Below, piece by piece: positions 2,505 through 23,413 of a DNA stretch of 49,782 nt (positions within the stretch are counted from its first letter, which is position 1; each line of letters begins with the position of its first letter). This stretch comes from an uncultured Eubacteriales bacterium (GTDB lineage Bacteria > Bacillota > Clostridia > Christensenellales > Aristaeellaceae): NCBI GenBank assembly GCA_902801165.1, contig CADCHI010000023.1:19179-68960 (forward strand), read 5' to 3'. Below the pieces are notes generated by a model. It was not told where the DNA came from and did no database searches. It was given only the letters and a program-made list of their open reading frames with translations. The position numbers and the translations under genes are program-made.

Positions 2505-3701
2505 TTGGAATCAGCTGCTGAAAACAGAAAATGCCATGTATTGCTGATCTATCGCGCCATGATCCCCTCGGTGCGGCTCTGCGGCCACAGCCAGATGGAG
2601 GCCTTGGCGCGGGAGGGGCTGCTCGAGTACCGGGCCGTGCAGGAGATGCAGTTGACCCGGGCGGACATGAATTGGGCTGACACGGTGCTGCTGGGACGGC
2701 TGGACAGCTGGTATGAGCGCAGGCTGGCCCAGATCCTGCACGACGCCAGGCGCAGGCTCGTCTACATCATCGACGACGACCTGCTGAACATCCCTCCCGC
2801 CATCACCAGCGCCGCTTACTACGGGCAGCCGGCGGTCCAGGGGAATATCCGGGCGATGCTCGACATGAGCGGCGTCATATTCTCGCCCTCGCCGCTGCTG
2901 CTGGCCAAGTACGCCACCGATGGCAAGCTGGCGGTAAAAATGGAGGAGCCTGCGCTGGAGCCGGTATCCTACAGCCCGCGGAACCCGGGAAGGCCGCTGA
3001 AGATCGGCTTTGCGGGTTCGATCGACCGGGTTTCGGACATTGAGGAAATCCTTCGCAAGGCGCTGTTTCGCATCAAGGAGGAGTTCGGGGACCGGGTGCG
3101 GTTTGAATTCTTCGGGGCCATTCCCAGCTTCGCCAGGCAGCTGGAGGCTGCCTGTATCCCCTATACGGAGGATTACGATCACTACCGCCGTAAATTGAAT
3201 GAGCTCGCCTGGGACATCGGGCTTGCGCCCATGCCCATCACGCCCTTCCACGCCTGCAAGCACTATAATAAGTTCTGCGAGTACTCGGCGGCCGGCGTCG
3301 CGGGGATCTATACCGACAGCGAGCCCTACGTGTTCATCCCGGAGAAGGAGCGCTTCGGCCGGTTCTGCAAGAACACCCCGGAGGCCTGGTACGAGCAGAT
3401 CCGCGCGGAGATCCTGGACGACGAAGGCCGGGAGGAGCACCGCAGGCAGTGCTGCGCCTGGGCGGGCGAGAGATTGTCTCCGTCCTATATCGGACGGGAG
3501 CTGTTTCAGGCTCACGGGGAGCTGTTCCGCCCCCTGGAGGCGCAGGCGATCGCCGGTTCTGCGCTGGGCTGGCTGAAGGTGCAGAACCTCTGCCGCTCGG
3601 TGGCGGAAAAGGTGCGGCGCAACGGCCTCAAGACGCCGGTCGTGGCGGTCCAGAAGCTGACGGGCCGGCTCCGCTCGATGGTGGAGAGGCGTCGGCATTG
3701 A
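2505..3701 (+). CDS. Glycosyltransferase, GT-B type, specificity unknown
   Basis: About 398 residues starting at a TTG (2505) with AAGGAG at 2491-2496. The open frame continues far upstream, but that part overlaps the preceding gene and codes for no plausible protein. The N-terminal half begins with a CHVLLIYRAMIP strand and contains an IDDDLL motif (near residue 86). A GFAGSIDRV segment starts the second Rossmann-like half, and a HYNKFCEYSAAG element near residue 250 resembles the donor-sugar EX7E region of GT4-like enzymes. It lies between GT2 rhamnosyltransferases and the exporter, so it probably contributes a residue to the same glycan. Donor and linkage are unknown. Confidence 0.6.
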   Translation: MESAAENRKCHVLLIYRAMIPSVRLCGHSQMEALAREGLLEYRAVQEMQLTRADMNWADTVLLGRLDSWYERRLAQILHDARRRLVYIIDDDLLNIPPAITSAAYYGQPAVQGNIRAMLDMSGVIFSPSPLLLAKYATDGKLAVKMEEPALEPVSYSPRNPGRPLKIGFAGSIDRVSDIEEILRKALFRIKEEFGDRVRFEFFGAIPSFARQLEAACIPYTEDYDHYRRKLNELAWDIGLAPMPITPFHACKHYNKFCEYSAAGVAGIYTDSEPYVFIPEKERFGRFCKNTPEAWYEQIRAEILDDEGREEHRRQCCAWAGERLSPSYIGRELFQAHGELFRPLEAQAIAGSALGWLKVQNLCRSVAEKVRRNGLKTPVVAVQKLTGRLRSMVERRRH

Positions 3702-3723: not shown

Positions 3724-4527
3724 TTGAAAAGAATAACACTTCGGGGACACGGCTATCGGAAGAAAACGGCGCTGACGCTGTCCCTTGCATCCAATGATTT
3801 CAAGAGCAAGTATGCCAGCTCTCAATTGGGCGTGCTCTGGGCGTTTGTCAAGCCGATTGTGCAGGCGTGCGTCTATATTTTTGTGTTCACGATCATCGCC
3901 AGATCGGCCCCGGTTGGGAACACCTATCCGTATGCGTTTTGGCTGCTGCCGGGTATCGTGGCGTGGTTCTTCTTTTCCGAAGGCGTCATGTCCGGAGCGA
4001 ACGCGCTGCTGGAGTACTCCTATCTGGTCAAGAAGGTACGGTTCGACATCGAAATTCTGCCGATGGTGAAGGTGCTGTCAGCGTCCATCGTTCACATCTT
4101 CTTTGTGCTGTTTGTGCTGTTTCTATACCTGCTGTGGGGGCTCCCGCTGAGCTGGACGATGCTGCAGATTCCCTATTATATGCTCTGCACGCTGTGCATC
4201 ACCTCGGCGCTGGCCAGGATCAATTGTGCCCTGGTGCCGTTTTTTCGGGACTTTACGCAGATGCTGGAAATAGTGCTCATGGTCCTGATGTGGGCCTGCC
4301 CGGTGATGTGGGACATCGCCATGATGCCGCAGAAGATTGTCGTTCTGTTCAAATTGAATCCGATGTACTACGTGATCGACGGCTACAGGCAGTCGTTTAT
4401 GAACGGCAAGTGGTTCTTTGAAAGCCCCTGGCTGACGCTGTACTTCTGGGCGATTGTCATCGTGCTGCATTTCGGCGGCAAGAAGCTGTTTCAGCGGTTG
4501 CGCATCCACTTCGCCGACATTATCTGA
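3724..4527 (+). CDS. wzm: Polysaccharide ABC exporter, permease subunit Wzm
   Basis: A 267-residue ABC-2 type membrane protein with about six hydrophobic segments, the normal size for Wzm/TagG-type permeases. The N-terminal amphipathic stretch before TM1 and the ASSQLGVLWAFVKPIVQ segment (near residues 30-46) are characteristic. The start is a TTG at 3724 behind a GAAGGGAG ribosome site. With Wzt it would carry a completed undecaprenyl-linked polymer across the cytoplasmic membrane. Its position directly before wzt and after glycosyltransferases fits O-antigen, teichoic-acid or S-layer-glycan export loci. Confidence 0.88.
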   Translation: MKRITLRGHGYRKKTALTLSLASNDFKSKYASSQLGVLWAFVKPIVQACVYIFVFTIIARSAPVGNTYPYAFWLLPGIVAWFFFSEGVMSGANALLEYSYLVKKVRFDIEILPMVKVLSASIVHIFFVLFVLFLYLLWGLPLSWTMLQIPYYMLCTLCITSALARINCALVPFFRDFTQMLEIVLMVLMWACPVMWDIAMMPQKIVVLFKLNPMYYVIDGYRQSFMNGKWFFESPWLTLYFWAIVIVLHFGGKKLFQRLRIHFADII

Positions 4528-4551: not shown

Positions 4552-5847
4552 ATGGCCGTAGTAGAGGTTTCACACATCAGGAAAACCTATAACACCTATA
4601 AAAAGGAGAGCGATCGCTTCCGGGAGGCGATCTCCTTCCGGCACAAGGAGCTTCACAGCCAGTTCACGGCGCTGGAGGACGTAAGCTTTCAGCTGGAAAA
4701 GGGCGAATGCCTGGGCATTATCGGTACCAACGGCTCCGGCAAGTCAACGCTGCTGAAGATCATCACGGGTGTGCTGCAGCCGACCGACGGGCAGGTGAAC
4801 GTGGACGGCAAGGTCAGCGCGCTGCTGGAACTTGGCGCGGGCTTCAACGGGGATTATACCGGCATCGAAAACATCATCCTCAACGGGAAGATCATGGGTT
4901 ACAGCGAGGAAGAGATGCGCGAACGCATTCCGATGATCGCGGACTTCGCTGAGATCGGGGATTTTATCAATCAGCCCGTCAAGATCTACTCCAGCGGCAT
5001 GTTTGCGCGGCTGGCCTTTGCTGTGGCGATCAACGTGGACCCGGACATACTCATCATCGACGAGGCGCTGAGCGTCGGCGACATTTTTTTCCAGACGAAG
5101 TGTTACCGGAAATTTGACGAGTTCATGCAGCGGGGAAAGACGATATTGTTTGTCTCCCACGACCTGAGCAGCGTCATCAAGTATTGCAACCGCTGCCTTC
5201 TGCTTCACAAGGGCAGGCAGATCGCCCTGGGGGACTGCAAGGAGGTTGTGGACGTCTACCGCAAGATCCTGGTGGACCAGTACGACGAGGACAATGGGCT
5301 GGCTTCCGTGCGCGTGGAGGAGGCCGACGCCCAGGAGGAGCAGGCGGAGGAAGGCGCGCCGGTCGTTTGGAAGAACGCGGTGCTCCAAAACCCGAACTAT
5401 GTGGAATACGGAGACCAGAGCGTCGTCATAGATGACTTCGGCATCATCAATGAGGACGGCGAAGTCTCCAGCGTGTTGATGAAGGGTACCACCTATTCGA
5501 TCGTGATGAAGTTCCACTTCAACAAGACGATCGTAAACCCGATATTCGCCTTCACGATCAAGGATCCGAAGGGCACGGACCTCTGCGGCACCAACACCAT
5601 GCTCGAGGGGCAGACGCTGGATCGCGCAGCGGCAGGGTGCAGCGGCGTGGTGCGCTTCAAACAGGTCATGCGGCTGCAGGGCGGCCAGTACTTCCTGTCA
5701 CTGGGTGCGACCAGTTACCTGGGCGAGGAGTTGCAGGTGCATCATCGGCTGTATGACATCTGCCACTTGCAGGTGGTTTCGGATTACAACACGATCGGCG
5801 TATACGACGTGGAATCGACGGTCAGCTATGAGAATTTGAAGGGCTAA
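4552..5847 (+). CDS. wzt: Polysaccharide ABC exporter ATPase Wzt with C-terminal glycan-binding domain
   Basis: 431 residues. The ATPase half shows Walker A GTNGSGKS (58-65), an SSGM signature (147-150), Walker B DILIIDE (165-171) and the switch region FVSHDLSS. After a Glu-rich linker (about 255-275) comes a beta-rich domain of about 145 residues that matches the Wzt C-terminal domain. In E. coli O8/O9a this domain binds the modified non-reducing end of the finished polymer and so licenses export. The neighbouring methyltransferase-kinase-coiled-coil gene would supply such a terminal mark, so the two probably form a cap-and-recognise pair. That pairing is inference; the ATPase identity is clear. 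Confidence 0.9.
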   Translation: MAVVEVSHIRKTYNTYKKESDRFREAISFRHKELHSQFTALEDVSFQLEKGECLGIIGTNGSGKSTLLKIITGVLQPTDGQVNVDGKVSALLELGAGFNGDYTGIENIILNGKIMGYSEEEMRERIPMIADFAEIGDFINQPVKIYSSGMFARLAFAVAINVDPDILIIDEALSVGDIFFQTKCYRKFDEFMQRGKTILFVSHDLSSVIKYCNRCLLLHKGRQIALGDCKEVVDVYRKILVDQYDEDNGLASVRVEEADAQEEQAEEGAPVVWKNAVLQNPNYVEYGDQSVVIDDFGIINEDGEVSSVLMKGTTYSIVMKFHFNKTIVNPIFAFTIKDPKGTDLCGTNTMLEGQTLDRAAAGCSGVVRFKQVMRLQGGQYFLSLGATSYLGEELQVHHRLYDICHLQVVSDYNTIGVYDVESTVSYENLKG

Positions 5848-5862: not shown

Positions 5863-8115
5863 ATGATGGAAACGATTGAAGTGATTGGCAAGGTCCGGCT
5901 GAACAAGCGCTGGTATCGGGGCAGTGATTCCTATTCGGACGGGGATTCCGCCGAAAACGAGCTGCTGTCCATTGTCAGTCAGCACACTCCGGAGGATTAC
6001 AACGGGATCATCATGCGCCAGGGCTCGTGGCCGCTGCTCTACCACCTGTCACCTGTTCGTGAAAACATCATCGGCTGGTATCCCTTCCGGGAGGGCGCCA
6101 GGGTGTTGGAGCTCGGGGCCGGGTGCGGCGCGGTGACGGGCGCGCTGCTGGATCGGGGCCTTCAGGTCAGCGCGGTGGATCTCTCCCTCCGCCGCTGCCG
6201 GATCAATGCCGAGCGCCACGCCAACTGTGACGACCTGGAGATCTTCGTCGGGGCGATTGAGGACGTGCTGCAGAACATCGAGGCGCAGTTCGACTACGTG
6301 CTGTTGATCGGCGTGCTGGAGTACGCGGCGATGTTCTCCTCCCATGAAGCACCCCAGGAATACATGCTGCGGTGCATTGAGCGGGTGCTGAAGCCCGAGG
6401 GCGAATTGATCGTTGCGATTGAGAACCAGCTGGGCATAAAGTACCTGGCTGGATGCCGGGAAGACCATACGGGGCGCTTTTTCGAAGGCGTGGAGGGCTA
6501 TCCCCATCGCGATGGGCCCGTGACCTTCAGCAGGAGCCAGCTGGCCGCGCTGTTTACTTCGTGTGGATTCACACCGGAGTTCTTCTATCCATATCCTGAT
6601 TACAAATTCCCGATCAAGATCTTTTCAGATCGCAAGCTTCCCGCCAAAGGAGAACTGAATCGCAACTGGCAGAACTTTGACGCGAGCCGGGTGCGGCTAT
6701 TTGATGAGTGCAAGGCCAGCGACGTCCTGCTGGACGCAGGGCTGGCATCGGAATTTGCCAATTCCTTCCTGGTTCGCCTGACGCGGCAGCCGGATGAACA
6801 GGCAACAAGGGCGCTCTATGTCAAGTCGTCCGTGGAACGCAGGCGGGAGTATCGGCATCACACGATCATCATGGAGGGCCCGGAGGGCCGGTCCGTGTAC
6901 AAGAAGGCGGCGTCCCGGGAGGCCGAGGCGCATCTTCGCTCAATGGATGGCTGCCGGGAAGCGCTGACGCAGGCGCTGCTGCCCGGAGCCCGGGTAGATA
7001 TCGCGCCGTGCATGGTCCGTCCGGACGGTACGATCGTATTTCCCTTCTATCCCCACGAAACGCTGCGCGATCTGCTGTCGCGCTGCGGCGGAGACGTTCA
7101 GGCCTTTTCAGACGTGGTGGAAGGTTTCAGGCAGGCCCTGGTCGACGCCTTCGGCACGGCGAGGTTCGAGGGGGGTGAGGCGTTTGAGGCCATGTTCGGC
7201 GGCGCGAAGCTGCCGGAGGGACTTGAAGCGCTGCGGGTGACGAACCTGGATATGAACTTCGACAATGTGTTCATTGACGGTGACCGCTATATCATTGTCG
7301 ACTACGAGTGGGTTCTGCCCGTTCCCGTGCCGCTGTCCTTTGTGCTTTACCGGGCGCTTCTGGTCAATATGGACATGGCGCGCTTCCCCGACGACGAGCG
7401 CGAATTCGTATGGTCCCGGCTGGGGATCGACGAGGTGCTGCGCAAGGTTTATTGGGAGATGGAACTGTGCTTCCAGCGCTATGTATCCGGAGAGAACAAC
7501 AAGCTGGAACAGTTTGAAAACCAGGAGCTGGGCGAGGCGCCTGTGACAGCCAGCCTGGAGGAGCTTCTCTTTGCATTACAGGAATCCCGGCGGCTTTCCA
7601 AGGATATGGAGGCATTCCGGGATGCCTACGAAAAGCAGGCGCAGGCTTCGGCGGAGTTGACCCGACAGCGGGACGAGTATCGGGACGCCCTGGATGCGCA
7701 AACGCAGGCTTCGGCGGAGTTGACGCGTCAGCGGGACAAATATCGCGATGCTCTGGATGCGCAAACAGAAGCTTCGACAGAGTTGACGCGCCAACGGGAC
7801 GAATATCGCGATGCTCTGGATGCGCAAACAGAAGCTTCGACAGAGTTGACGCGCCAGCGGGACGAGTATCGCGATGCTCTGGACGCGCAAACAGAAGCCT
7901 CGGCGGAGTTGACGCGCCAGCGGGACGAATATCGCAATGCTCTGGATGCGCAAACAGAGGCCTCGGCGGAGCTGACCCGTCAGCGGGACGAGTACCACGC
8001 GGCAAACGATGAGCTTTGGAAGCGGGTCGCTTCCGCGGAGAGCGCGCTGGAGTCCACCCGTGCTGAGCTGGCAGAGCTGATACGAAAGACCACGCCATTC
8101 TGGCGCAGGCATTGA
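5863..8115 (+). CDS. WbdD-like chain terminator: methyltransferase, kinase-like domain, repetitive coiled coil
   Basis: A 750-residue cytoplasmic protein. Residues about 60-270 form a SAM methyltransferase with motif I VLELGAGCG (81-89). Residues about 310-560 look like a small-molecule kinase: a Lys pair in VYKK (347-348), a catalytic-loop-like NLDMNFDNV (461-469) and a metal-binding VDYE (479-482). Residues about 575-735 are coiled coil containing five near-identical 21-residue units, each three heptads. In E. coli O8/O9a, WbdD methylates (and in O9a first phosphorylates) the growing end, and its coiled coil acts as a ruler setting chain length. Domain order and the adjacent Wzt with recognition domain support the same role here. 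The kinase assignment rests on short motifs. Confidence 0.7.
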   Translation: MMETIEVIGKVRLNKRWYRGSDSYSDGDSAENELLSIVSQHTPEDYNGIIMRQGSWPLLYHLSPVRENIIGWYPFREGARVLELGAGCGAVTGALLDRGLQVSAVDLSLRRCRINAERHANCDDLEIFVGAIEDVLQNIEAQFDYVLLIGVLEYAAMFSSHEAPQEYMLRCIERVLKPEGELIVAIENQLGIKYLAGCREDHTGRFFEGVEGYPHRDGPVTFSRSQLAALFTSCGFTPEFFYPYPDYKFPIKIFSDRKLPAKGELNRNWQNFDASRVRLFDECKASDVLLDAGLASEFANSFLVRLTRQPDEQATRALYVKSSVERRREYRHHTIIMEGPEGRSVYKKAASREAEAHLRSMDGCREALTQALLPGARVDIAPCMVRPDGTIVFPFYPHETLRDLLSRCGGDVQAFSDVVEGFRQALVDAFGTARFEGGEAFEAMFGGAKLPEGLEALRVTNLDMNFDNVFIDGDRYIIVDYEWVLPVPVPLSFVLYRALLVNMDMARFPDDEREFVWSRLGIDEVLRKVYWEMELCFQRYVSGENNKLEQFENQELGEAPVTASLEELLFALQESRRLSKDMEAFRDAYEKQAQASAELTRQRDEYRDALDAQTQASAELTRQRDKYRDALDAQTEASTELTRQRDEYRDALDAQTEASTELTRQRDEYRDALDAQTEASAELTRQRDEYRNALDAQTEASAELTRQRDEYHAANDELWKRVASAESALESTRAELAELIRKTTPFWRRH
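7669..7983 (+). repeat. Five tandem 63-base units encoding a coiled coil
   Basis: Units begin at 7669, 7732, 7795, 7858 and 7921, each starting with a codon block for RDEYRDALDAQT. A partial unit precedes (from about 7633) and another follows (from 7984). Units 2 and 3 differ at only two of 63 positions. Each unit is exactly 21 codons, or three heptads, so gain or loss of a unit keeps the frame and the coiled-coil phase. Confidence 0.95.
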
Positions 8116-8134
8116 TTACCATACGGAGGCAATG

Positions 8135-10366
8135 ATGGACGTAACGATCTGTATACCAACCAAGAACGGTGGCAAGCAGCTGGATCGCGTTTTGGAGGCC
8201 GTGTTCAACCAAAAGACGGACTTGGAATACGAGGTGGTATGCGTCGATTCCGGTTCCGTGGACGACACGCTGGAGATCATCCAAAAGTACCCCCGGGTAA
8301 AGCTCGTCCAGATCCAGCCGTCGGAGTTTGGCCACGGCAGGACCCGGAACCTCGCGGCCTCCCACGGCACGGGGGAATTTATCTACTTCATCACTCAGGA
8401 CGCACTGCCGGCCTCCGACGAGTGGCTCGATCAAATGATCCGGGCCATCCGCAAGGACGACAAATGCGCGCTGGGATTCGGCATCCACTATCCCTATCCG
8501 GGATGCAATCTGCTGGACGCCCGGGACATCACCATGCACTTCAACGGCTTCGGCATGGAGAACACCTACTATTGGCTCGACGACCGCCAGCGTTATGCCC
8601 GGGAGGAGGGTTACCGGCATCTGCTGGCCTTCTCCTCGGACAACAACGCCTGCGTGCGCCGCTCGGTGTTTGAAAAATACCCCTACGAGGATGTGGAGTT
8701 TGCGGAGGACCAGATCTGGACCAAGAAAATGATGGAAATGGGCTATCACAAGGTGTATTGCCCCTATGCCCCGGTCTACCATTCCCACAACTTTCCCCTG
8801 AGAGAATACTTCCGCCGTTACTTTGACGAGTACAAGGGCCTGCGGGAGCTGCATGGTTACAGAATCGTGCGACGGGCCAGGGACATACCCCGCGCTGCCT
8901 ATGCCCTGATCAAGAGCGACTTCCGATATATCCGGGGCACCGATTTGCCCTTCCTAAAGAAAATGTATTGGCGGGTGTACGCCTTCCGACGGGACATCGA
9001 CCGCAATACGGCAGGCTACCTGGGAGGCAAGTACGCGGATGCCGCCCCGGATACGCAGCAGCTGATGGACGAGCTGTTTTCCCAGCAATACCAGCAACGC
9101 AATCGCAAGAAAAAGAAGAAGATGGGAGAGAGGTTCATGCTCAAGAAATACTGGGCCTTTTGCAAGAAGGCGGTGCGCTACCTGAGAAAGAATCACGGCA
9201 TCCCCGAGTCGGTGCTTGAGGAGACCCAGGAGCCGCCGAAGGTGCACGTGGAGGACGTATTCGGCATGGCGCTGGATAACGCCATCACCCCCTTCAACCG
9301 CGAGGATTATCTGGCCGCCAAGGACGGCCCGTTGCAGCTGAATTGGGTCATCCCTGAGATGGGGGTTGGGTCCGGGGGGCACATCAACATCTTCCGGTTC
9401 ATCTCTGCCCTGGAGCACAAGGGCATCAAGAACCGCATTTACATTGAGCGGGCAGTCAACTACCATACGGATGACGCGCTGCGGAACTTCCTGGCGGATG
9501 CCTATCCCATCCTGGACAGCAACATTGAGGTACACTGCTCAACTGAGAACATGCCGTTCTGCCATGGCGTGGTGGCCACCTCCTGGACGACGGCCTACTT
9601 TGTGAGGCGCTTCAACAACGCGGTGTCGAAGTTCTACTTCGTGCAGGATTACGAGAGCAGCTTCTACGCCGTGGGTTCGGAGTATATGCTGGCCGAAAAC
9701 ACGTACAACTTCGGCTTCCGGGGCATCACGGCGGGTGACTGGCTGAAGAACAAGCTGGAGAGGGAATACGCCATGCCCTGCGACAGCTTCCACTTTTCCT
9801 ATGACAAGGAACTGTACCACGCCATTGAGAAGCGGGACAATACCAAGCGCATCTTCTTCTACGCCCGCCCGGTCACGCCGCGGCGCGCGTTTGAACTGGG
9901 CATGCTGGCCCTGCTCGAGCTGCACAGGCGGGTCCCGGAGATCGAGGTCGTGTTCGCCGGCTGGGATGTGAGCAACTACTACATTCCCTTTACCCATCTG
10001 AACGCGGGCAGCGTGCCGCTGGCACAGCTTTCCGATCTGTACGCGCAGTGCGATATCTGCCTGGTCATGTCGCTGACAAACCTGTCGCTGCTGCCGCTTG
10101 AAGTCATGGCGTCCAACTCCGTCATCGCCACGCAGGGCGGTGAAAACAACTCCTGGATGGTGGATGAGCGCAATGCCATCATCGTCGATTGCGATCCGTT
10201 GAACATCGCTTCCAAGCTGGAGGATTACCTGAACCATCCTGAGAAGCTGGCGGAGCTGCGCAAGGCTGGATTGGAGTATGCTGCTTCCACCAACTGGGAC
10301 CGCGAGACTGACAAGGTTTATCAGAGTATTGTCAAGGGGATTCGAGAAGATGAACAAAAACTGTAA
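8135..10366 (+). CDS. Bifunctional rhamnosyltransferase: GT2 domain fused to WsaF-like GT4 domain
   Basis: 743 residues; ATG 8135 is better spaced from GGAGG (8125-8129) than the adjacent ATG 8132. The first 280 residues are an RfbF-like GT2 domain (TICIPTKNG near 4, TQDALP near 87). After a Lys-rich linker (NRKKKKKMG, near 325) comes a second enzyme of about 330 residues, beginning LQLNWVIPEMGVGSGGH. This closely resembles WsaF, the rhamnan-backbone rhamnosyltransferase of Geobacillus stearothermophilus S-layer glycan. The C-terminus has the GT-B donor-site style motif SNLS/LPLEVMA. Two active sites in one chain suggest that it builds a disaccharide repeat of the polyrhamnose backbone. The linkages cannot be read. 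Confidence 0.75.
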   Translation: MDVTICIPTKNGGKQLDRVLEAVFNQKTDLEYEVVCVDSGSVDDTLEIIQKYPRVKLVQIQPSEFGHGRTRNLAASHGTGEFIYFITQDALPASDEWLDQMIRAIRKDDKCALGFGIHYPYPGCNLLDARDITMHFNGFGMENTYYWLDDRQRYAREEGYRHLLAFSSDNNACVRRSVFEKYPYEDVEFAEDQIWTKKMMEMGYHKVYCPYAPVYHSHNFPLREYFRRYFDEYKGLRELHGYRIVRRARDIPRAAYALIKSDFRYIRGTDLPFLKKMYWRVYAFRRDIDRNTAGYLGGKYADAAPDTQQLMDELFSQQYQQRNRKKKKKMGERFMLKKYWAFCKKAVRYLRKNHGIPESVLEETQEPPKVHVEDVFGMALDNAITPFNREDYLAAKDGPLQLNWVIPEMGVGSGGHINIFRFISALEHKGIKNRIYIERAVNYHTDDALRNFLADAYPILDSNIEVHCSTENMPFCHGVVATSWTTAYFVRRFNNAVSKFYFVQDYESSFYAVGSEYMLAENTYNFGFRGITAGDWLKNKLEREYAMPCDSFHFSYDKELYHAIEKRDNTKRIFFYARPVTPRRAFELGMLALLELHRRVPEIEVVFAGWDVSNYYIPFTHLNAGSVPLAQLSDLYAQCDICLVMSLTNLSLLPLEVMASNSVIATQGGENNSWMVDERNAIIVDCDPLNIASKLEDYLNHPEKLAELRKAGLEYAASTNWDRETDKVYQSIVKGIREDEQKL

Positions 10367-11274: not shown

Positions 11275-13356
11275 ATGAAGAGAATTGCTCAGAACAGGAA
11301 AAGAATTACTGCCGTGCTTATGGTGCTCCTGCTCTTTGTCGGCGCGTACTTCTTTGGAAATAAGGTCGTGGCGCCCAGGCGGGCGGCTACGCAGGCAGCA
11401 GGCGAAGCAGGGGCGGAGGCTCAGGCGGGCGAGGCGGAGGTCGATGCGCCAGGCGCTGCGGAAGAAGTGACGGCGCCCGTCGTCGTTTCATCCCCTTCCT
11501 TGGTCAGCGGCTCTGCGGAAAGCGGTGAAGACGTGCCGGTATCCTTCTTTTTGGCAGATGTTCAGTACCTGGATTTGGACAGCACGATCGAACTGATGCG
11601 GGAATGCGACGTCACCGTGTTGACGGTGCCGCTGGCCTGGTCGATACTGGAGCCGGAAAAGGGCAGTTTCCAGGTGGATTCCTATTGGGAGAAGCTGGAC
11701 ATACTGGCGGAGCAGGGGTTTGACTTCATCTTCCTGCTCGACGCTTCCTCAAGGTGTATCCTGAACGAACAGGAAGTCGTAGTCTGCACTTCTATTCCCG
11801 AGTGGGTCTATCAGGAGCCGGGCGCCATGACCATGCTGGACTTCATCGGCAGCACGGGCAGCGCGAGGGGGTCGCTGAGCTATTCCTATCCGGCCAACCA
11901 GGCGCTGTACCTGGACTTCTGCCGAAGGACCATCGAGGCATTCGACGAGCGGTACGGAGAATCGATCCTCGGCTTTGCGCCGGGAGTCATGCCGGAGTTT
12001 GAGATCAAATATCCCCAGGAGAATTTTGCCTGGGTGGATTTCAACGAGGACGCGCAGAACCATTTCCGCGCTTTCCTGAAGGAAAAGTACCAGACGGTCC
12101 AAGCGATGAACAATGCGCTGGGCACGAGCTGTCTGAGCTTTGCCGAGCCAATGCTGCCGATCATCAACTACAACAACAGCCTGGCGAACGGACAGCTGGT
12201 TGAAGCGCCGCTGTACGTCGACTATCAACTGTTCCGGGAAAAGGAGCTGGTACAGTACCTCATTCCGGTCTATGACCTGATCCACAATGCGGGATACAAG
12301 ACATTCTCCTATTTCGGACAGGTGCTGCATCCCCACGACGGGATCTATGCGGCTGGAGTCGCCACGAGACTGCACGATTACGTGGATGTCGCGGTGATCG
12401 ATTACAATTTCTATGACGGTTACGGCCTGGTGTTGGATTGCGCTCTGCCCGCCATGATGGCAAATTACATGAAGACCGCCGGCTACGCGGAGGTTTGGTC
12501 CGGACTCTACGTGGAACAACTGTTTTACGCGGGCATGAATGACTATGGATTTCTCCAGGAAGCCATCGATTACATCGCCGCGGACGGGAGCGCCGGGGGC
12601 GTGGAGATCGGCGGCTTGCAACACAGCCTCCATGCCTCGGAGGACGGGAGCGTCGATATAGGGCTGTCCTATGGCAAGGTCGAGCGACAGGCGCCCGCCA
12701 GGATCGCGATCTATGCCAGCGAGTGGAATTTCTACCACAGCCACGGGGAAAGCCCCGCGTTGATCAATTACTTTGACGACTGCCTGGTACAGATGTACAA
12801 GATTATCCAGTTCGAGCTGGGGCGAAACGTCGATATCCTCTGCGATGAGGCCGTGCTGGATGGGCGCCTTGGGCAATATGACCTGGTCGTACTTCCCGGG
12901 CAGTTCTATGTGGACGCGGAAGTACGCCAGGCAATCGAGGATTACTTGTCTGCAGGCGGCAAGGCCATCCAGGACTTCCGCTTTGGTGAGTGGGATGCCT
13001 ACGGCGTCAACCAGGGCTCCTGGAGCGACGGGTGGTTTGACATCGCCGCGAGGGAGGCGCTTCATGCGGAGGAAATTCTGACTCCGGTGGATGAATCCTT
13101 TGCAGAACTGGGAGAGGTGACGCTGCAAGCGCCTTATGGTTTGATTCCCAACTGCTATGCCATCGCCGGCGCGGATGAGAACACCCGCTATCTCTTTGCC
13201 GGGATGGATGACAGGTATTTTGGCACCCGCACGGACAATACCATTTGCCTGTGCTGGCAGCCGCAGATCCAGTATAAGTACGCGCAGACCCAGGAGGAAC
13301 AGCAGGCATGCGTCCGGGCGATCGAACTCGCCATCGACGCCGTGCTCGACGAATGA
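11275..13356 (+). CDS. Membrane-anchored GH42-like glycoside hydrolase
   Basis: 693 residues. A single N-terminal hydrophobic segment (about 13-28) followed by an Ala/Glu-rich linker (35-75) indicates an extracytoplasmic anchored enzyme. Residues about 85-460 resemble the TIM-barrel of family 42 beta-galactosidases, with [14 protein letters not shown] as the early barrel strand and Glu-rich candidates for the catalytic pair in [10 protein letters not shown] (near 240) and GLYVEQLF (near 414). Residues about 470-600 resemble the GH42 class I glutamine-amidotransferase-like middle domain. Inside a polysaccharide locus it may trim or release the polymer outside the cell. The catalytic residues are guesses and the substrate is unknown. 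Confidence 0.65.
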
Positions 13357-13384
13357 GAATCGAGAAAGCAGGAGGTATGACACA

Positions 13385-14272
13385 ATGAAAGGCATCATCC
13401 TGGCCGGCGGCGCCGGCACGCGGTTGTATCCGCTCACCATGGTCACGTCCAAGCAGCTCTTGCCGGTGTACGACAAGCCAATGATCTATTATCCGCTGTC
13501 CACCCTGATGCTGGCGGGTATCCGGGACATCCTGATCATCTCCACGCCGGAGGACACGCCCCGCTTCGAGCACCTGCTGGGCGACGGCGCGCAGTTCGGC
13601 GTGAATCTGAGCTATGTGGTGCAGCCCTCTCCGGACGGCCTGGCCCAGGCGTTCCTGCTGGGCGAGGAGTTCATCGGCGACGACGCCTGCGCCATGGTGC
13701 TGGGCGACAACATCTTCTACGGCAACGGCTTCAGCAAGATCCTGCGCGCGGCTACCGCGGACGCCGAGCAGAACGGCCGGGCCACGGTCTTCGGCTACTA
13801 TGTCAACGACCCGGAGCGCTTCGGTATCGTGGAGTTCGACGCCGACGGCAAGGTGATCTCCGTGGAGGAGAAGCCCGCCCAGCCCAAGAGCAATTATGCC
13901 ATCACGGGCCTGTACTTCTATCCCAAGGGCGTGTCGGCGATGGCCCACGAGGTCGTGCCCAGCGCCAGGGGAGAGCTTGAGATCACCACGCTGAACGACA
14001 TGTACCTGAAGCGGGACCTGCTGGACGTGCAGCTGCTGGGCCGCGGCTTTGCCTGGCTGGACACCGGCACCATGGACAGCCTGGTGGAGGCGGCGGACTT
14101 CGTGCGGATGATCGAGCAGCGCCAGAGCATCAAGATCAGCGCGCCGGAGGAGATCGCCTACAAGAACAACTGGATTTCCAAGGAAAAACTGCTGGAATCC
14201 GCGGAGCGCTACGGCAAGAGCCCCTATGGCAAGCATCTGAAGGCGGTCGCGGACGGAAAGGTGAGGTATTGA
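13385..14272 (+). CDS. rmlA: Glucose-1-phosphate thymidylyltransferase RmlA
   Basis: 295 residues, the normal length for the short RmlA. It makes dTDP-glucose from glucose-1-phosphate and dTTP, the first step to dTDP-L-rhamnose. The signature [11 protein letters not shown] (8-18) and [18 protein letters not shown] just after it are diagnostic; VLGDNIFYG contains the metal-binding Asp. The start at 13385 follows AGGAGGT (13370-13376); a longer in-frame opening from 13157 lies inside the previous gene and is spurious. It leads the block rmlA-rmlC-rmlB-rmlD. Confidence 0.97.
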
Positions 14273-14835
14273 TGAAAAAGATAGAGACGAAACTGCCCGG
14301 CGTGGTCATCGTGGAGCCCCAGGTGTTCGGCGATCACAGGGGATATTTTATGGAGACCTGGTCCACCCGCAACTTTGAGGAGCTGGGCCTGAACTATGAT
14401 TTCGTGCAGGACAACCAGTCCTTCTCCGCCCAGAAGGGCACGCTGCGGGGCATCCACTTCCAGAACGCGCCCTATGCCCAGGCGAAGCTGGTGCGCGTGA
14501 CCCGTGGCGCGGTGCTGGACGTGGCAGTGGACCTGCGCAAGGGCAGCCCAACCTACCGGCAGTGGGTGGCCGTGGAGCTCTCCGCCGAGAACAAGCGCAT
14601 GCTGATGATCCCCCGGGGCTTTGGCCACGGCTTCAAGACGCTGACGGACAACGTGGAGTTCTGCTACAAGGTGGACAACCTCTACAGCAAGGAGTGCGAC
14701 CGGGGCATCCGCTTCAACGACCCCACCATCGGCGTGGACTGGGGCGAGGTGACCGAGGAGCTGCTCAGCCAGAAGGACACCACCTCGCCGCTGCTCGACG
14801 ACAGCGACTGCAACTTCATCTACGGAGAGATTTGA
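14272..14835 (+). CDS. rmlC: dTDP-4-dehydrorhamnose 3,5-epimerase RmlC
   Basis: 187 residues, a cupin-fold epimerase of typical size. Catalytic candidates His62 (in RGIHFQ) and Tyr132 (in EFCYKVD) are present, as is the substrate-binding GYFMETW near the start. The ATG at 14272 shares one base with the rmlA stop, indicating translational coupling. A TTG one codon upstream is less likely. It converts dTDP-4-dehydro-6-deoxyglucose to the L-configured 4-keto intermediate that RmlD reduces. Confidence 0.97.
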   Translation: MKKIETKLPGVVIVEPQVFGDHRGYFMETWSTRNFEELGLNYDFVQDNQSFSAQKGTLRGIHFQNAPYAQAKLVRVTRGAVLDVAVDLRKGSPTYRQWVAVELSAENKRMLMIPRGFGHGFKTLTDNVEFCYKVDNLYSKECDRGIRFNDPTIGVDWGEVTEELLSQKDTTSPLLDDSDCNFIYGEI

Positions 14836-14853
14836 CACAGGAGGAATGCACAA

Positions 14854-15873
14854 ATGAATATCATCGTGACCGGCGGCGCCGGCTTTATCGGCTCCAACTT
14901 CATCTTCCACATGCTCAAGGCCCATCCCGACTACCGCATCGTGTGCCTGGACAAGCTGACCTACGCGGGCAACCTGTCCACGCTGGCGCCGGTGATGGAC
15001 AACCAGAACTTCCGCTTCGTGAAGGCGGACATATGCGACCGTGAGGCCGTGTACAAGCTGTTTGAGGAGGAGCATCCGGACATCGTGGTGAACTTCGCGG
15101 CAGAGAGCCACGTGGACCGCTCCATCGAAGACCCGGGCATCTTCCTCCAGACGAACATCCTGGGCACCGCCACGCTGATGGACGCCTGCCGAAAGTACGG
15201 CATCACCCGCTATCACCAGGTTTCCACGGATGAGGTCTACGGCGACCTGCCGCTGGACCGCCCCGACCTGTTCTTCACGGAGGAGACGCCGATCCACACC
15301 TCCAGTCCCTATTCCAGCTCGAAGGCGGGCGCGGACCTGCTGGTGCTGGCCTATCACCGCACCTTCGGGCTGCCGGTGACCATCTCCCGCTGCTCCAACA
15401 ACTACGGCCCTTATCACTTCCCGGAGAAGCTGATCCCGCTGATGATCGCCAACGCGCTGAACGACAAGCCGCTGCCGGTGTACGGCGAAGGCCTGAATGT
15501 GCGCGATTGGCTGTACGTGGAGGACCACTGCAAGGCCATCGACCTGATCATCCACAAGGGGCGCGTGGGTGAGGTGTACAACATCGGCGGTCACAACGAG
15601 ATGCGGAACATCGACATCGTGAAGCTGATCTGCAAGGAGCTGGGCAAGCCGGAGAGCCTGATCACCCACGTGACGGACCGCAAGGGCCACGACATGCGCT
15701 ACGCCATCGACCCGACGAAGATCCACAATGAGCTGGGGTGGCTGCCGGAGACGAAGTTCGCGGACGGCATCAAGAAGACGATCCAGTGGTACCTGGACAA
15801 CCGGGAGTGGTGGGAGACCATCATTAGCGGCGAGTACCAGAATTACTACGAGAAGATGTACGGCAATCGGTGA
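14854..15873 (+). CDS. rmlB: dTDP-glucose 4,6-dehydratase RmlB
   Basis: 339 residues, an extended SDR of the expected length. The NAD site is GGAGFIGSNF (7-16); the active site shows STDEVYGD (124-131) with the Asp-Glu pair characteristic of dehydratases, and Tyr153-X3-Lys157. It dehydrates dTDP-glucose to dTDP-4-dehydro-6-deoxyglucose. It lies 18 bases after rmlC with an AGGAGG-like site. Gene order A-C-B-D keeps the whole pathway in one transcript. Confidence 0.97.
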   Translation: MNIIVTGGAGFIGSNFIFHMLKAHPDYRIVCLDKLTYAGNLSTLAPVMDNQNFRFVKADICDREAVYKLFEEEHPDIVVNFAAESHVDRSIEDPGIFLQTNILGTATLMDACRKYGITRYHQVSTDEVYGDLPLDRPDLFFTEETPIHTSSPYSSSKAGADLLVLAYHRTFGLPVTISRCSNNYGPYHFPEKLIPLMIANALNDKPLPVYGEGLNVRDWLYVEDHCKAIDLIIHKGRVGEVYNIGGHNEMRNIDIVKLICKELGKPESLITHVTDRKGHDMRYAIDPTKIHNELGWLPETKFADGIKKTIQWYLDNREWWETIISGEYQNYYEKMYGNR

Positions 15874-15885
15874 GGAGAAGAGAGC

Positions 15886-16803
15886 ATGAAGGTATTTGTG
15901 ACGGGTGTCTGCGGACAGCTGGGCCACGATGTGATGAATGAACTGGCAAAGCGGGGCCATGAGGGCGTGGGCAGCGACATCGCCCCGGCCTACAGCGGCA
16001 TCCAGGACGGCAGCGCCGTGTGCGCCATGCCCTATGTGCAGCTGGATATCACCGATGAAGCCGCGGTCCGCGAGGCGCTGGAGCGCGTTCGGCCCGACGC
16101 AGTGATCCACTGTGCCGCCTGGACGGCGGTGGACGCCGCCGAGGACGAGGCGAACCAGCCGAAGGTCAGGGCCATCAACGTGGACGGCACCCGTCACATC
16201 GCCCGGGCCTGCCAGACACTGGATTGCAAGATGATGTACATCAGCACCGACTATGTGTTCGACGGCCAGGGCACGGAGCCCTGGCAGCCGGACTGCAAGG
16301 ACTACGCGCCGCTGAACGTGTACGGCGAGTCGAAGCTGGGCGGCGAGCTGGCAATTCACGAAGCGGTGAAGAAGTTCTTCATCGTGCGCATCGCGTGGGT
16401 GTTTGGCCTGAATGGCAACAATTTCATCAAGACGATGGTCAAGCTGGGCAAGACCCACGACACACTGCGGGTGGTGAACGACCAGATCGGCACGCCCACC
16501 TATACCCTCGACCTGGCCCGCCTGCTGGTGGACATGATCGAGACGGAGAAGTACGGCTATTACCACGCCACCAACGAGGGCGGCTACATCAGCTGGGCGG
16601 ATTTCGCCATGGAGATCTTCCGCCAGTCCGGCCAGAGCGTGACGGTGACGCCGGTGACCACCGCGGAGTACGGCCTGTCCAAGGCTGCCCGCCCGTTCAA
16701 CAGCCGCCTGGACAAGCGGAAGCTGGTCGAGAACGGCTTTGAGCCGCTGCCGGACTGGAAGGACGCGGTGAGAAGGTATCTGGCACAGATTGCGTTCCTG
16801 TGA
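15886..16803 (+). CDS. rmlD: dTDP-4-dehydrorhamnose reductase RmlD
   Basis: 305 residues. Visible are the nucleotide-binding VTGVCGQLG (5-13), the ISTDYVFDG strand (119-127) and the catalytic Tyr146-X3-Lys150. It performs the last NAD(P)H-dependent step to dTDP-L-rhamnose, the donor for the rhamnosyltransferases upstream. The start at 15886 lies 12 bases after rmlB behind a GAGGAGAAG ribosome site. Confidence 0.96.
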   Translation: MKVFVTGVCGQLGHDVMNELAKRGHEGVGSDIAPAYSGIQDGSAVCAMPYVQLDITDEAAVREALERVRPDAVIHCAAWTAVDAAEDEANQPKVRAINVDGTRHIARACQTLDCKMMYISTDYVFDGQGTEPWQPDCKDYAPLNVYGESKLGGELAIHEAVKKFFIVRIAWVFGLNGNNFIKTMVKLGKTHDTLRVVNDQIGTPTYTLDLARLLVDMIETEKYGYYHATNEGGYISWADFAMEIFRQSGQSVTVTPVTTAEYGLSKAARPFNSRLDKRKLVENGFEPLPDWKDAVRRYLAQIAFL

Positions 16804-16903: not shown

Positions 16904-19153
16904 ATGGTGGGTACTATGACAAAAAAGAAGCAGAAGAGGCGCAAGGTCGGGATTCTGTTTGCGGTATTGAAGTATGGTTTTTCCGTTATGGCGACGGTCA
17001 TGGCGTGCACAGCGGTGCACAATTGGGCGCTGCTGCCTGTCGGCCTTGCGGAGCTTTTTCTGATTTGGACGGTAAGCAACGCCCTGCTGAACCTGGTGAA
17101 CCCGTTAGGACAAATCATTCATTTCTTGCTTCTGTTCCTTTTTGGTGGACAGATGCTGGTGATGTACTTCGGCAACTCCTTTACGACGCTGCTGATGCTG
17201 ACCAATCTTGTCTCCCTGGAGGATTTGAGCGGCAATTTTGGGGTCTACCTGATGCTGCTGATCCCGATGCTGGTCATCCTGTTCTATCCCATGGTGACCG
17301 TGCGACTGCGCCGGAAGCGCGGGTGGCTGATGCTTGGCGCTGCGCTTCTGATATGGCTGGGCACGGTACTGGGGTTTAGCGCTTCGTGCTCGCCCCTCAT
17401 CAGCGCCGGGCTGGTGGTCAGGGACGCCGTTGACCAGCGCAACATGCGGGCCGAGATCCAGAACAACGATGCGGTGGATCGGTCGCAATTCTACAGGGCT
17501 GGAATTGCTGATAACCGCGCCAAGCCGGGCGACCTGCCGGAACAGCCCAACGTTATTCTGATCTTTGCGGAGGGGCTCTCCCAGAGCATCGTCGAGGACG
17601 AAAGGGCGATCATGCCCTTCCTGGCATCGCTGGAGGAAAAGTCGCTCTTTTTTGAGAACTACTACAACCATACATTTGCGACCTATCGCGGCCTGATCGG
17701 CCAGCTCTATTCCGGTTTCCAGCTTTCGGATTTTGATTCAAACTCCCTGGTCTCCATGCAGAGTATGTTCGGGGATCTGGGTTATACTACCACCTTTATA
17801 AACACTGAGCCGGACAATGTTCAGTTCACGGCATACCTGGGCAGGATGGATTTTGATGAACTCCTGTCAAAAGACGAATGGATGACATCAAACTATGGAT
17901 TGTTGTATGTCAGTGACAGGGAGGCTTTTAATCGACTGTATGAGACCGCCCTGGAATTGCATGACGGCGATAAACCTTTTTTCCTGTCCATGTATTCCTT
18001 TGGCACGCACGCATCGCTGAACAGCCCGGATCTGATGTATGGCGATGGCACGACGCCGGAAATCAATAAGTTCTACAACTTGGATGCGCAGCTGCAGGCC
18101 TTTTTCGAACGGTACGAGCAGGGCGAGCTGGCGCGGGACACGTTGATTGTCATCACGGGCGACCACTGCACCTACCAGGATAAAGCCTTTACAGAGGCCT
18201 TCCCGGATTATCCCCGCTACTGCACCGAGATCGATCACGTCCCGCTGATACTGTACTACCCGGGCATTCAATCCGAGCGCGTGGACGCGCAGGGCAGGAA
18301 CACGTTGGATCTCGCGCCCACCGTGCTGGACTATATCGATGTTTCCGCACCGAATTATTTCCTCGGTGACAGTCTCTTTGGCCTGGGACAGGAAGTGCGA
18401 GAGGACGTACTGCCCTTTGACCGGATTTTCTTCGACGGTTCCTACATCTACAGGACGGACCTGGGCGAGGAGATCGAGCTTCAAGACGCTATGCGTCAAG
18501 ACGCCCTCGAGCGGATCATGGAATACTTCGCGGTCAGCATCAACACGAGCACAGACGACGACAGCTATGATTTTGATGTGACGCCGTCCAGCGACAGCAG
18601 GTACTTGTCCATCATTTCGACACACCAGGTTGAAATGGGGCAGCGCCTGTGGTTCGGCGTTTGGTCGGGCCAGAATGAGCAGGACGATATCAAGTGGTAC
18701 AGGCCGGTTTATACATTTGAGGGCGTCGCGCATTGCGTCGTTCCCCTCATCAACCACGGCGATTCCGGAACCTATCTGATTCATGAGTACATTGGCGATG
18801 ATCAGAGGCCGACTCCCGGCAGTTACATTGCGGGAAAAAACTGCTATGTTTCAAAGACGCCTACCCCTTACGAGATTGATATCGCATTGAATGAGGCGCA
18901 GGCAAAAATGGAGATTGCCGTTCCCATGAACCTGCTGGAGGGCGAGGTGCTGTACTTTGCCGTCTGGGGGTCGGAGGACGGACAGAATGACCTGGCCTGG
19001 TATACGGCTTCCGACGATGGCAGCGGTTCGCAGCGCGTCACGGTGGATTTGAGCGAGCATGCCGAAAAGGGCCAGTACATCATTGACATGTATCTGGGCA
19101 CGGATGTCAATTACGGCACCATGCTGGGCCGCGGCGAATGCATGGTGGAATAA
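16904..19153 (+). CDS. LtaS/GacH-like phosphoglycerol transferase with C-terminal Bsp-like repeats
   Basis: 749 residues. About five transmembrane segments occupy roughly residues 15-165, followed by an extracytoplasmic alkaline-phosphatase-superfamily domain (about 205-530). Catalytic-type residues are Glu223 (IFAEGLS), the nucleophile candidate Thr260 (FATYRGL) and Asp420-His421 (ITGDHC), matching the LtaS arrangement Glu-Thr-Asp-His. Two C-terminal beta modules of about 90 residues each contain VWSGQNEQDDIKWY and WGSEDGQNDLAWY; they resemble GBS-Bsp-like repeats found in wall-associated proteins. In a rhamnan locus the likely role is transfer of glycerol phosphate from phosphatidylglycerol to the polysaccharide, as GacH does for the group A Streptococcus carbohydrate. 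ATG 16916 is an alternative start. Confidence 0.72.
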   Translation: MVGTMTKKKQKRRKVGILFAVLKYGFSVMATVMACTAVHNWALLPVGLAELFLIWTVSNALLNLVNPLGQIIHFLLLFLFGGQMLVMYFGNSFTTLLMLTNLVSLEDLSGNFGVYLMLLIPMLVILFYPMVTVRLRRKRGWLMLGAALLIWLGTVLGFSASCSPLISAGLVVRDAVDQRNMRAEIQNNDAVDRSQFYRAGIADNRAKPGDLPEQPNVILIFAEGLSQSIVEDERAIMPFLASLEEKSLFFENYYNHTFATYRGLIGQLYSGFQLSDFDSNSLVSMQSMFGDLGYTTTFINTEPDNVQFTAYLGRMDFDELLSKDEWMTSNYGLLYVSDREAFNRLYETALELHDGDKPFFLSMYSFGTHASLNSPDLMYGDGTTPEINKFYNLDAQLQAFFERYEQGELARDTLIVITGDHCTYQDKAFTEAFPDYPRYCTEIDHVPLILYYPGIQSERVDAQGRNTLDLAPTVLDYIDVSAPNYFLGDSLFGLGQEVREDVLPFDRIFFDGSYIYRTDLGEEIELQDAMRQDALERIMEYFAVSINTSTDDDSYDFDVTPSSDSRYLSIISTHQVEMGQRLWFGVWSGQNEQDDIKWYRPVYTFEGVAHCVVPLINHGDSGTYLIHEYIGDDQRPTPGSYIAGKNCYVSKTPTPYEIDIALNEAQAKMEIAVPMNLLEGEVLYFAVWGSEDGQNDLAWYTASDDGSGSQRVTVDLSEHAEKGQYIIDMYLGTDVNYGTMLGRGECMVE

Positions 19154-21122: not shown

Positions 21123-21169
21123 CAACCGGTCGTCGGGCATGACTGCCAATGCTTACAGGAGGACGTATA

Positions 21170-23413
21170 GTGCGTTATTCTCCGAAATGGATGCCCCTTT
21201 CACAGAAGGTCAGGGCGGGATTCGAGGCCGCGGGAGAGCGGCTTTTCCTCTTCCTGACCGCGATGTACCTGTTCTACTGTTTTTCGGGCATCACGACGTT
21301 TGGCCTTACATTTCCGGCTGAGTTTGAGGCGACCCTGCTGTGGTTCATGACCGTCGTCGCGCTGGCGCGCCTGGTGCTCATCGGTCCTCGCCGCAGGGAG
21401 CCCTGGCTCGGCCTGGCGCTGGCGGCGGTGTGCTATCTGTCCCATCGGACGGGCAGCTACCGGCACCTGTACTATCTCGCGGTGATGACCCTGGGGTTCA
21501 TCGGGATCGACTACCGCAAGATCCTGTGGACCTACCTCGCGACCGTCGGCAGCCTGCTGCTGGCGACGGTGCTTGCGGCGCTGGCCGGGGGCATCGCGAA
21601 CATCGTATACTATCGGGACGGCTTTCGCAGCAGCCTGGGGATCTGCTATCCGACGGACCTGTCGGCGATCTCGCTGTTCGCATTGCTGGCGCTCTGGGCG
21701 GCCTGGAAGAAGGTCCCGACGCCCGTCATGCTGGCGATCAGCCTGGGGTATGTGGCCCTGACGGCGTTCGTCACCCGGTCGCGCAACAGCCTGGTCTGCG
21801 GCGCGCTGCTTGCCCTGCTGATACTGGCATACTGGATCGGAGAGCGGCAGACGAGCAAGGGCTGCCTGACCCGGCTCGTGGATTGGCTGCTGACGCTGGC
21901 GCTGCCGATTTGTGCAGGCGCCATCATTTTGCTCGTATTCGTCTATTCGAAGAATACGCCCCTCGCGGAGAAGCTGAACGCGCTGCTGTCGGACCGGCTG
22001 CGACTCAGCCTGCAGGCCTATCGGGATCATGGCCTGACCGCCTTCGGGACGCCCTTTGACATGATGGGGAACGGTTATTCCGTGTTCCCGCCGAGCGACT
22101 ACTATTTCGTGGACAGCTCGTATATGCTGATCCTCCTGCGCCACGGGTGGGTGATGCTGCTGGAGCTGGGCGCGGCATGGGTGTACCTGACGCGAAGGGC
22201 CATCGCGAACGGCCACCGCAGGCTGGCGATGGCGCTGGGCCTGATCGCGTTCCACTCCATGCTGGAGCATCACTTCATGGAGATTGGTTACAATATCCTG
22301 CTGGCGATGCCGCTGGCGTCGATCGCGACGCAACCGGAACCGAAGCCGCTGCAGCGCGGCCAGTATACAAAGCGGTATATCGCTTCCGGGATCGTCCTTG
22401 CGCTGCTCTGTGCGCTGATGATCTTCCTGCCCGGGTTTGTCACCCGCCTGAGAACGGTATTCGAGGCGAAGGGCTGGCACAACGGCGGCCAGAACGCCGC
22501 GCCGGTGCTGCTGATTGCGCTGTGCGCCGTGTGGACGGCGATCGCGCTGTCGAGGTCGCTGTATCGCATCGCTGACCGGCTGGTTGAGCGCCGGCGTCCG
22601 CAGCTTGTTCCGGTGCTGGCATTGGGCGTGTGCCTCTGCCTGGGCGTCGGGGGTTGGCTGTGGAGCGGCGGCGTGGTCGCGCAGGCCCAGAGGGATTACG
22701 CGCCCAATGTGAAGGAGGATGCCGCGGCGCTGGAGTGCGTCCTGTATTCCGCGAAGGGCGGGGTCTATTCCGATGTGGCGCCGGACGTCTACAGAAGACA
22801 GTACCCGGGGATTCGCCCGACGATCCTCCCGACGGAGGAGCTGGCAAGGCTGGACGGCGCGACGGTGCTGGCGATGGCGGCGCCGGAGTACAACGCCTTT
22901 TTCCAGAACGACTTCCGGTTCGCACAGATCTCCGGCATCCACGGCATCTATACCAACGACCCGGATGCCGCGGAAGCGCTGGCGGCGGCGGGCTTTTCTG
23001 TGACGGATTACTATTCGACGAAGGTGAGCGTGGATCTCGGCTGCGAAGCCGCGCTGAACGGACTCACCGTGGATGAACACGGCGTGCTCCTGGACGGGCC
23101 GCTGCAATCGCTGAACCAGGGTCCCTACATGGACCTGTTCGCCGGGGAATATGAGGTCAGGTTCGACCTGTTCCTGCCGGAGCGGGCGGGCGAGGACGCG
23201 GACAAGGTGTGCACGCTCCGGGTCAACACCTACTGGGGCGAGAACACGCTCGAGGTACAGCCGGTCTACCGGGGAGATTTTGACGCGGACGGCAGGTTGA
23301 CAGCCACGCTGAGGTTTTCGGCAGGGTACGCGCGGGCCACGGAGTTTGCCGTCGTGGCGGAGGACGAGCCGCTGTATATCAGCGGGCTGACTGTTCAGAA
23401 GGTTGGAAAATGA
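21170..23413 (+). CDS. Polytopic Wzy/WaaL-like membrane protein with C-terminal extracytoplasmic domain
   Basis: 747 residues from the GTG at 21170, which sits behind AGGAGGA (21157-21163); the ATG at 21149 lies upstream of that site and is unlikely. Around twelve hydrophobic segments fill roughly residues 20-520. A large hydrophilic loop near residues 265-320 includes VDSSYMLILLRHGW, of the kind seen in O-antigen polymerases and ligases. After a last helix (about 482-502) comes a soluble, apparently extracytoplasmic domain of about 240 residues with no motif known to me. Because the locus has an ABC exporter, which needs no polymerase, a ligase that attaches exported polymer to the wall is an attractive reading. 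A Wzy polymerase of a second glycan remains possible. Confidence 0.6.
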   Translation: MRYSPKWMPLSQKVRAGFEAAGERLFLFLTAMYLFYCFSGITTFGLTFPAEFEATLLWFMTVVALARLVLIGPRRREPWLGLALAAVCYLSHRTGSYRHLYYLAVMTLGFIGIDYRKILWTYLATVGSLLLATVLAALAGGIANIVYYRDGFRSSLGICYPTDLSAISLFALLALWAAWKKVPTPVMLAISLGYVALTAFVTRSRNSLVCGALLALLILAYWIGERQTSKGCLTRLVDWLLTLALPICAGAIILLVFVYSKNTPLAEKLNALLSDRLRLSLQAYRDHGLTAFGTPFDMMGNGYSVFPPSDYYFVDSSYMLILLRHGWVMLLELGAAWVYLTRRAIANGHRRLAMALGLIAFHSMLEHHFMEIGYNILLAMPLASIATQPEPKPLQRGQYTKRYIASGIVLALLCALMIFLPGFVTRLRTVFEAKGWHNGGQNAAPVLLIALCAVWTAIALSRSLYRIADRLVERRRPQLVPVLALGVCLCLGVGGWLWSGGVVAQAQRDYAPNVKEDAAALECVLYSAKGGVYSDVAPDVYRRQYPGIRPTILPTEELARLDGATVLAMAAPEYNAFFQNDFRFAQISGIHGIYTNDPDAAEALAAAGFSVTDYYSTKVSVDLGCEAALNGLTVDEHGVLLDGPLQSLNQGPYMDLFAGEYEVRFDLFLPERAGEDADKVCTLRVNTYWGENTLEVQPVYRGDFDADGRLTATLRFSAGYARATEFAVVAEDEPLYISGLTVQKVGK

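Follow-up and report, generated by a model that had tools for sequence, protein, structure and literature searches.

The window, by which we mean the whole 49,782-nucleotide stretch of gut clostridial DNA analyzed here, contains a cluster of genes predicted to build, terminate and export a rhamnose-containing glycan (Table 1). A gene for a protein with a methyltransferase domain, a predicted kinase domain and a long C-terminal helix follows the genes for a Wzm-Wzt ABC transporter and precedes one for a GT2 glycosyltransferase fused to a WsaF-like rhamnosyltransferase. The adjoining Wzt has a C-terminal recognition domain (PF14524 Wzt_C, E 1.1e-37), as a first-pass annotation of the sequence had claimed. 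The rml ORFs are 36-66% identical to the annotated rfbA/C/D and rffG of locus L050. Among the 16 loci with wide flanks, which are those examined for synteny, Wzm-Wzt genes lie directly before the terminator gene in 14; the two exceptions are L063, which begins at a contig edge, and L062, with no Wzm or Wzt in the 11 kb covered.

Table 1. Features of the putative terminator gene and of neighboring genes, in window positions.
Feature	Position	Strand	Basis
Wzm, ABC-2 permease	3724..4527	+	Pfam ABC2_membrane
Wzt ATPase with C-terminal glycan-binding domain	4552..5847	+	Pfam ABC_tran and Wzt_C
Methyltransferase-kinase-helix gene (putative terminator)	5863..8115	+	open ORF, 750 aa
SAM methyltransferase core, residues 82-184	6106..6414	+	Pfam and alignment to P0004
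Predicted APH-fold kinase domain, residues about 305-543	6775..7491	+	AF2, Foldseek, VIA-align
Kinase catalytic motif, residues 459-483 (D463, N468, D480, E482, W483)	7237..7311	+	alignment-invariant columns
50-residue linker	7492..7641	+	equal length in window gene, L040, L041, L048
Five internal 63-bp / 21-residue units	7642..7956	+	TRF, unit alignment
Sixth (terminal) unit	7957..8019	+	nearest to last unit of other genes
39-residue C-terminal anchor, ends FWRRH, overlaps last unit	7996..8112	+	
GT2 fused to WsaF-like rhamnosyltransferase, candidate polymerase	8132..10366	+	Pfam, synteny
dTDP-rhamnose genes rmlA, C, B, D (start of rmlA approximate)	13157..16803	+	ORFs, identity to L050

Other features of the neighborhood were recorded. 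The ORF between a GT2 gene and wzm (2538-3701, + strand) has no match in Pfam or NCBIfam and possibly encodes a glycosyltransferase; a counterpart of 53-63% identity occupies the same place in L040, L041, L048 and L065, and lies nearby in L047. The rhamnan cluster also includes a GH42-like protein (11275-13356, +), with 39-40% identical proteins in L042-L044 and none seen in L041, L048 or L065. Downstream of rmlD is a sulfatase-fold protein with two GBS_Bsp-like repeats (16904-19153, +), and a 19-bp tandem repeat of 2.5 copies (23459-23506) separates the ORFs at 21149-23413 and 23540-24742.

Domains of the terminator protein and its known counterparts

The methyltransferase motif noticed in the first-pass annotation is confirmed by Pfam matches (Methyltransf_12/11/25) at residues 81-184, with a best E of 8.6e-11. 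A kinase-like catalytic loop had also been noticed. Although the protein has no kinase match in Pfam or NCBIfam, the AF2 model of the isolated domain (pLDDT 86, pTM 0.83) matches APH kinases in both Foldseek and VIA-align, which places the loop within a predicted APH-like fold. There is no hydrophobic stretch in the first 40 residues, and the best-scoring 19-residue segment (1.7) is located in the kinase, which fits a cytoplasmic protein. Pfam finds no GT domain in the protein, and the 50-residue linker, the units and the 39-residue end leave no room for CBM or GT2 modules.

The protein had been read as a Gram-positive counterpart of WbdD, the terminator of Escherichia coli O9a. Direct membership of the WbdD family by sequence was rejected, as similarity is confined to the SAM motif: the best BLASTP E against WbdD is 0.81, and hhalign aligns only 69 columns of that motif (probability 89). 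Searching PDB sequences with this one protein as query returned methyltransferases and one coiled-coil protein, but not WbdD. Predicted structure gives the counterpart reading its support. With the whole AF2 model, the WbdD structures 4azs, 4ax8 and 4azt occupy ranks 1-3 of the Foldseek search of the PDB (E 1.5e-10 to 2.1e-10, 13% identity), which suggests a fused methyltransferase-kinase fold as in WbdD; with a TMq of 0.20 and an rmsd of 16, the packing of the domains is not reproduced. WbdD is absent from the best 50 VIA-align matches of the whole model, all methyltransferases, and from the best 50 of both Foldseek and VIA-align for the kinase domain alone.

The two systems share the order of their domains, a C-terminal helix, and a gene position between wzm-wzt(CBM) and the polymerase gene. 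In E. coli HS the order is wzm-wzt-terminator-wbdA; the terminator bears just a methyltransferase annotation in that genome, and we name it WbdD from its place and its 708 residues. By the same synteny, the gene after the window terminator would be the polymerase. The counterpart claim therefore holds for predicted fold and O9 gene order and fails for sequence relationship. The proteins also differ in that the WbdD kinase has Pfam APH and Pkinase matches, whereas the kinase of the window protein has none, and in that nothing comparable to the tandem array occurs in wbdD (E. coli HS wbdD has only a 15-bp x 2.2 repeat). In a survey of wbdD, 263 records match and 210 cover at least 80% of the gene; among the 40 matches listed, the span is 2127 bp in all 32 with full coverage (89.9-100% identity). 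The remaining eight are confined to the final 8-13% of the gene, so there may be further alleles of a different length.

By sequence, the window protein appears to group with the type of Klebsiella pneumoniae O7 ORF6, whose kinase is AmiN-like (PMC11231755). ORF6-O7 was shown experimentally to add phosphate, partly methylphosphate, to the terminal rhamnose, and a D441A substitution abolishes the kinase step (PMC11231755). The homes named for this type in the available part of that source are alpha- and gammaproteobacteria and cyanobacteria, and some orthologs are described there as missing the GT modules (PMC11231755). A plasmid search returned four records, two of them clear gammaproteobacterial homologs with 27-31% identity to the window protein, and likely homologs of ORF6-O7 as well: P0003, a Citrobacter gene in an rml-wzm-wzt-terminator-GT-GT cluster, and P0004, a 1457-residue Pseudomonas protein. 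Because P0004 has Y28, Y66, G91, G93, E112 and Y158 at exactly the ORF6-O7 numbers, it was taken as a stand-in for that family. These residues align with Y24, Y60, G85, G87, D106 (E to D) and Y154 of the window protein, among which G85, G87, D106 and Y154 are the SAM-site equivalents; judged via the stand-in, the SAM-site residues of the ORF6-O7 type thus appear to be present. Residue 441 of P0004 is Phe, but its D443, which lies two positions from the D441 published for ORF6-O7, is matched in the alignment by D463 of the window protein, the probable equivalent of the catalytic Asp in the predicted AmiN/APH-like fold.

ORF6-O7 and the window protein both have a methyltransferase, an AmiN/APH-like kinase missed by family searches and then a helix, and both are accompanied by wzm-wzt and rml genes. 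The CBM domain and the two GT2 modules fused into ORF6-O7 were not seen in the window protein, and we did not take them as defining the type. In the comparison through P0004, the repeat-built helix and the Clostridia host are particular to the window protein.

A further relevant system is WsaE of Geobacillus, a methyltransferase with two GT domains that caps a Gram-positive rhamnan with a terminal 2-O-methyl group (PMC2943079). It shares with the window locus the Gram-positive host and Wzm/Wzt export, and with the predicted product of that locus a rhamnan and terminal methylation; a homolog of WsaF adjoins the window terminator; the fused GT domains of WsaE have no Pfam equivalent in the window protein. 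The WsaE precedent lends some weight to a reading in which the kinase has degenerated or has a different substrate and chains end in a simple O-methyl group, as with WsaE or E. coli O8 WbdD. The same reading could draw on loci with the methyltransferase and kinase on separate ORFs (L046, L047, L062, L064 and L066) and on K347, which is invariant in alignment A3 but replaced by R in P0003 and by H in P0004. We regard it as improbable, since D463, D467, N468, D480, Y481, E482 and W483 are invariant in all 10 rows of A3, and since the available part of the WsaE source names no kinase domain (PMC2943079). In alignment A2, which includes the two plasmid homologs, D463, N468, E482 and W483 are still invariant; the position of D480 is E in P0003.

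The repeat array and its turnover between species

A single tandem array was found by TRF in the terminator ORF (7645-7991; period 63, 5.5 copies, 90% matches, score 519). Identity at lag 63 is 0.86, whereas 2000 shuffles of the gene's codons reach 0.42 at best, so chance does not explain the array. The motif recurs as six 21-residue units starting at residues 594, 615, 636, 657, 678 and 699 (span 594-719). Five near-identical units had been counted before; these correspond to the internal ones (mean DNA identity 87.8%, minimum 81%), to which a sixth, diverged unit has to be added, a hybrid whose second part is the conserved C-terminal anchor.

The array was also thought to form a coiled coil. 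In the AF2 monomer model, residues 565-743 form one helix (block pLDDT 45-71), and the hydropathy of the tail peaks at a period of 3.50, which 0 of 2000 shuffles reach, although the 21-residue repeat itself favors that harmonic. A single unit taken alone is not above shuffles at this period (5936 of 20000 reach it), and the residues of the heptad core (A, L, Q, Y, A, Q) make it a weak one. The long helix and its period are consistent with a coil, then, but this part of the prediction is less firm than the others. From the rise per residue of a helix, each unit would add about 3.1 nm to the rod.

Related genes differ in unit number. In draft assemblies, we count six units in the window gene and in L040, four in L048, two in L041 and none in L005 (G022), in agreement with the expectation that the number would not be invariant, here between species only. 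The linker has 50 residues in the window gene, L040, L041 and L048, and the C-terminal end 39 or 35, so the lengths of these four proteins differ almost only by units. L040 and L041, for example, have catalytic cores that are 89% identical and differ in length by exactly 84 residues, or four units. Three more distant genes, L042, L044 and L043, are 88-89% identical to one another and encode 749, 770 and 770 aa; pattern matching, which misses diverged units in these genes, finds 5, 7 and 6 in L042, L043 and L044, where exact repeats are 15-18 bp. Some loci and genomes of the samples are the same and not independent (L040 is G008, L041 G017, L048 G010, L046 G212, L047 G002 and L045 G101). The distribution is patchy, with 22 of 308 genomes of the family and 6 of 396 in the order sample.

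Such differences might be artefacts of short-read metagenome assembly, of which repeats are a known weak point; nine of the loci come from MAGs or "uncultured" genome assemblies, and the genome of the window itself is in 98 contigs. The longest exact repeat, however, is 55 bp in the window gene and 59 bp in L040, and none of the seven genes measured exceeds 59 bp, which is below usual read length and makes collapse of the six-unit arrays unlikely, if still conceivable. The units also bear distinguishing substitutions, and the diverged arrays of L042, L043 and L044 differ by one 21-residue step. We therefore give an artefactual origin of the differences very little credence.

The units themselves show the signature of arrays that turned over once the species had diverged. 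For all 13 internal units of the window gene, L040 and L048 the nearest neighbor lies within the same gene, and no permutation of their labels (0 of 20000) reaches the observed difference; the single internal unit of L041, whose nearest units are those of L040, was excluded from the 13 and from the permutation. For last units, L041 included, the nearest neighbor is another gene's last unit in four of four cases. We infer from this between-species turnover, rather than from observed events, that the array is recombination-prone, as first proposed.

Relatives without an array indicate that it is dispensable for this type of gene: L005 has no units, L045 lacks an array and its tail is short, and the split-gene relatives L046 and L047 have no array in the coil. 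This bears on a reading in which the protein is a chain terminator whose helix only oligomerizes the enzyme and recruits the polymerase, with a unit number that drifts neutrally and no control of length. Intact catalytic motifs in L005 and L045 are in keeping with it, as is the report that WbdD trimers form through the helix, which is important for kinase activity too (PMC3482155). We nevertheless think neutral drift rather unlikely. Between the window gene, L040 and L048, protein identity is 85-90% in the units vs. 67-72% in the core; for the window gene and L040 the values are 84.8% vs. 66.9%, although four-fold sites are equally diverged (44.4% vs. 44.1%). Four-fold sites are about equally diverged for the window gene and L048 as well (units 50.3, core 48.3), and closer in the units for L040 and L048 (62.6 vs. 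41.3). Insertions and truncations of the WbdD coil, moreover, alter O-antigen length (PMC5082667).

Array periods in other loci also argue against neutral drift. In a scan of 29 loci, eight of which lack the kinase motif pattern and could not be judged for an array, every strong coil array shows, in its best-scoring row, a period that is a multiple of the heptad, 63 or 42 bp; an overlapping row in L067 with a lower score and a period of 30 bp (64% matches) does not. Weak off-pattern arrays (scores 43-64) include a 25-bp two-copy repeat in L079, whose period is not divisible by three, and repeats of 12 to 17 bp in L070, L073 and L079. At 1402-1446 of L071, the terminator ORF of G022, which has no 21-residue units, carries a 21-bp x 2.1 repeat, equal to one heptad.

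Proposed mechanism and its implications

Taken as a whole, the locus probably encodes a cap-forming terminator with a rod-length ruler. Growth of a rhamnose-containing polymer, assembled in the cytoplasm on a lipid carrier, would be ended by the protein: the kinase would phosphorylate the non-reducing terminal sugar and the methyltransferase would then methylate that phosphate; the C-terminal domain of Wzt would recognize the cap, and Wzm/Wzt would export the chain. An oligomeric helical rod would carry both catalytic domains at its distal end, and its conserved C-terminus would dock at the membrane, on the GT2/WsaF polymerase of the adjacent gene, or on both. Only chains that span the rod would be capped, so that rod length would set chain length. 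In WbdD, likewise, a distance separates the capping domains from the polymerase, and a chain is capped and exported only once it reaches those domains (PMC5082667); a coiled-coil methyltransferase ruler has also been proposed for E. coli O101/O162 (PMC13168486).

One ORF of L064 (7095-9221, - strand) encodes a kinase, 14-residue repeats (42 bp x 6.2, 93%) and a GT2 portion 55% identical to the window GT2 over 321 aa, a fusion in which the coil links the capping kinase with what is likely the polymerase. Its repeats are a second array of heptad-multiple period in this type of gene. The fusion and the conserved anchor are indirect hints of a possible C-terminal recruitment of polymerase and membrane of the WbdD kind.

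As for the product, LpxC occurs in 0 of 28 genomes of the genus and the genome of the window has four LytR-CpsA-Psr matches, so the glycan is likelier to be tied to the wall than to belong to LPS. An S-layer with SLH anchors is not supported either, as that genome (88.6% complete) has no SLH match.

Since a unit is 63 bp long and comprises three heptads, its gain or loss would change the rod by 21 residues, or about 3 nm, and keep both frame and heptad phase. The array might thus act as an evolvable ruler, a heptad-locked minisatellite serving as a length gauge, with which populations step glycan length by recombination or slippage and leave the enzyme intact; we put this forward tentatively, as an idea we hold somewhat doubtful. 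For the S-layer glycan of Geobacillus stearothermophilus, an additional factor controlling length was considered necessary (PMC2943079). No paper among the literature matches listed describes tandem repeats in a terminator ruler or a kinase-bearing terminator in Clostridia; one of these listings covers 12 of 32,911 matches and says little.

The locus would extend the methyltransferase-kinase terminator into Clostridia without LpxC. The natural series of 0, 2, 4 and 6 units in related species makes the ruler rule and its retuning directly testable. If the evolvable ruler is real, it would be a quantized counterpart of phase variation for the length of surface glycans, and evolution may set sugar-chain length in fixed steps.
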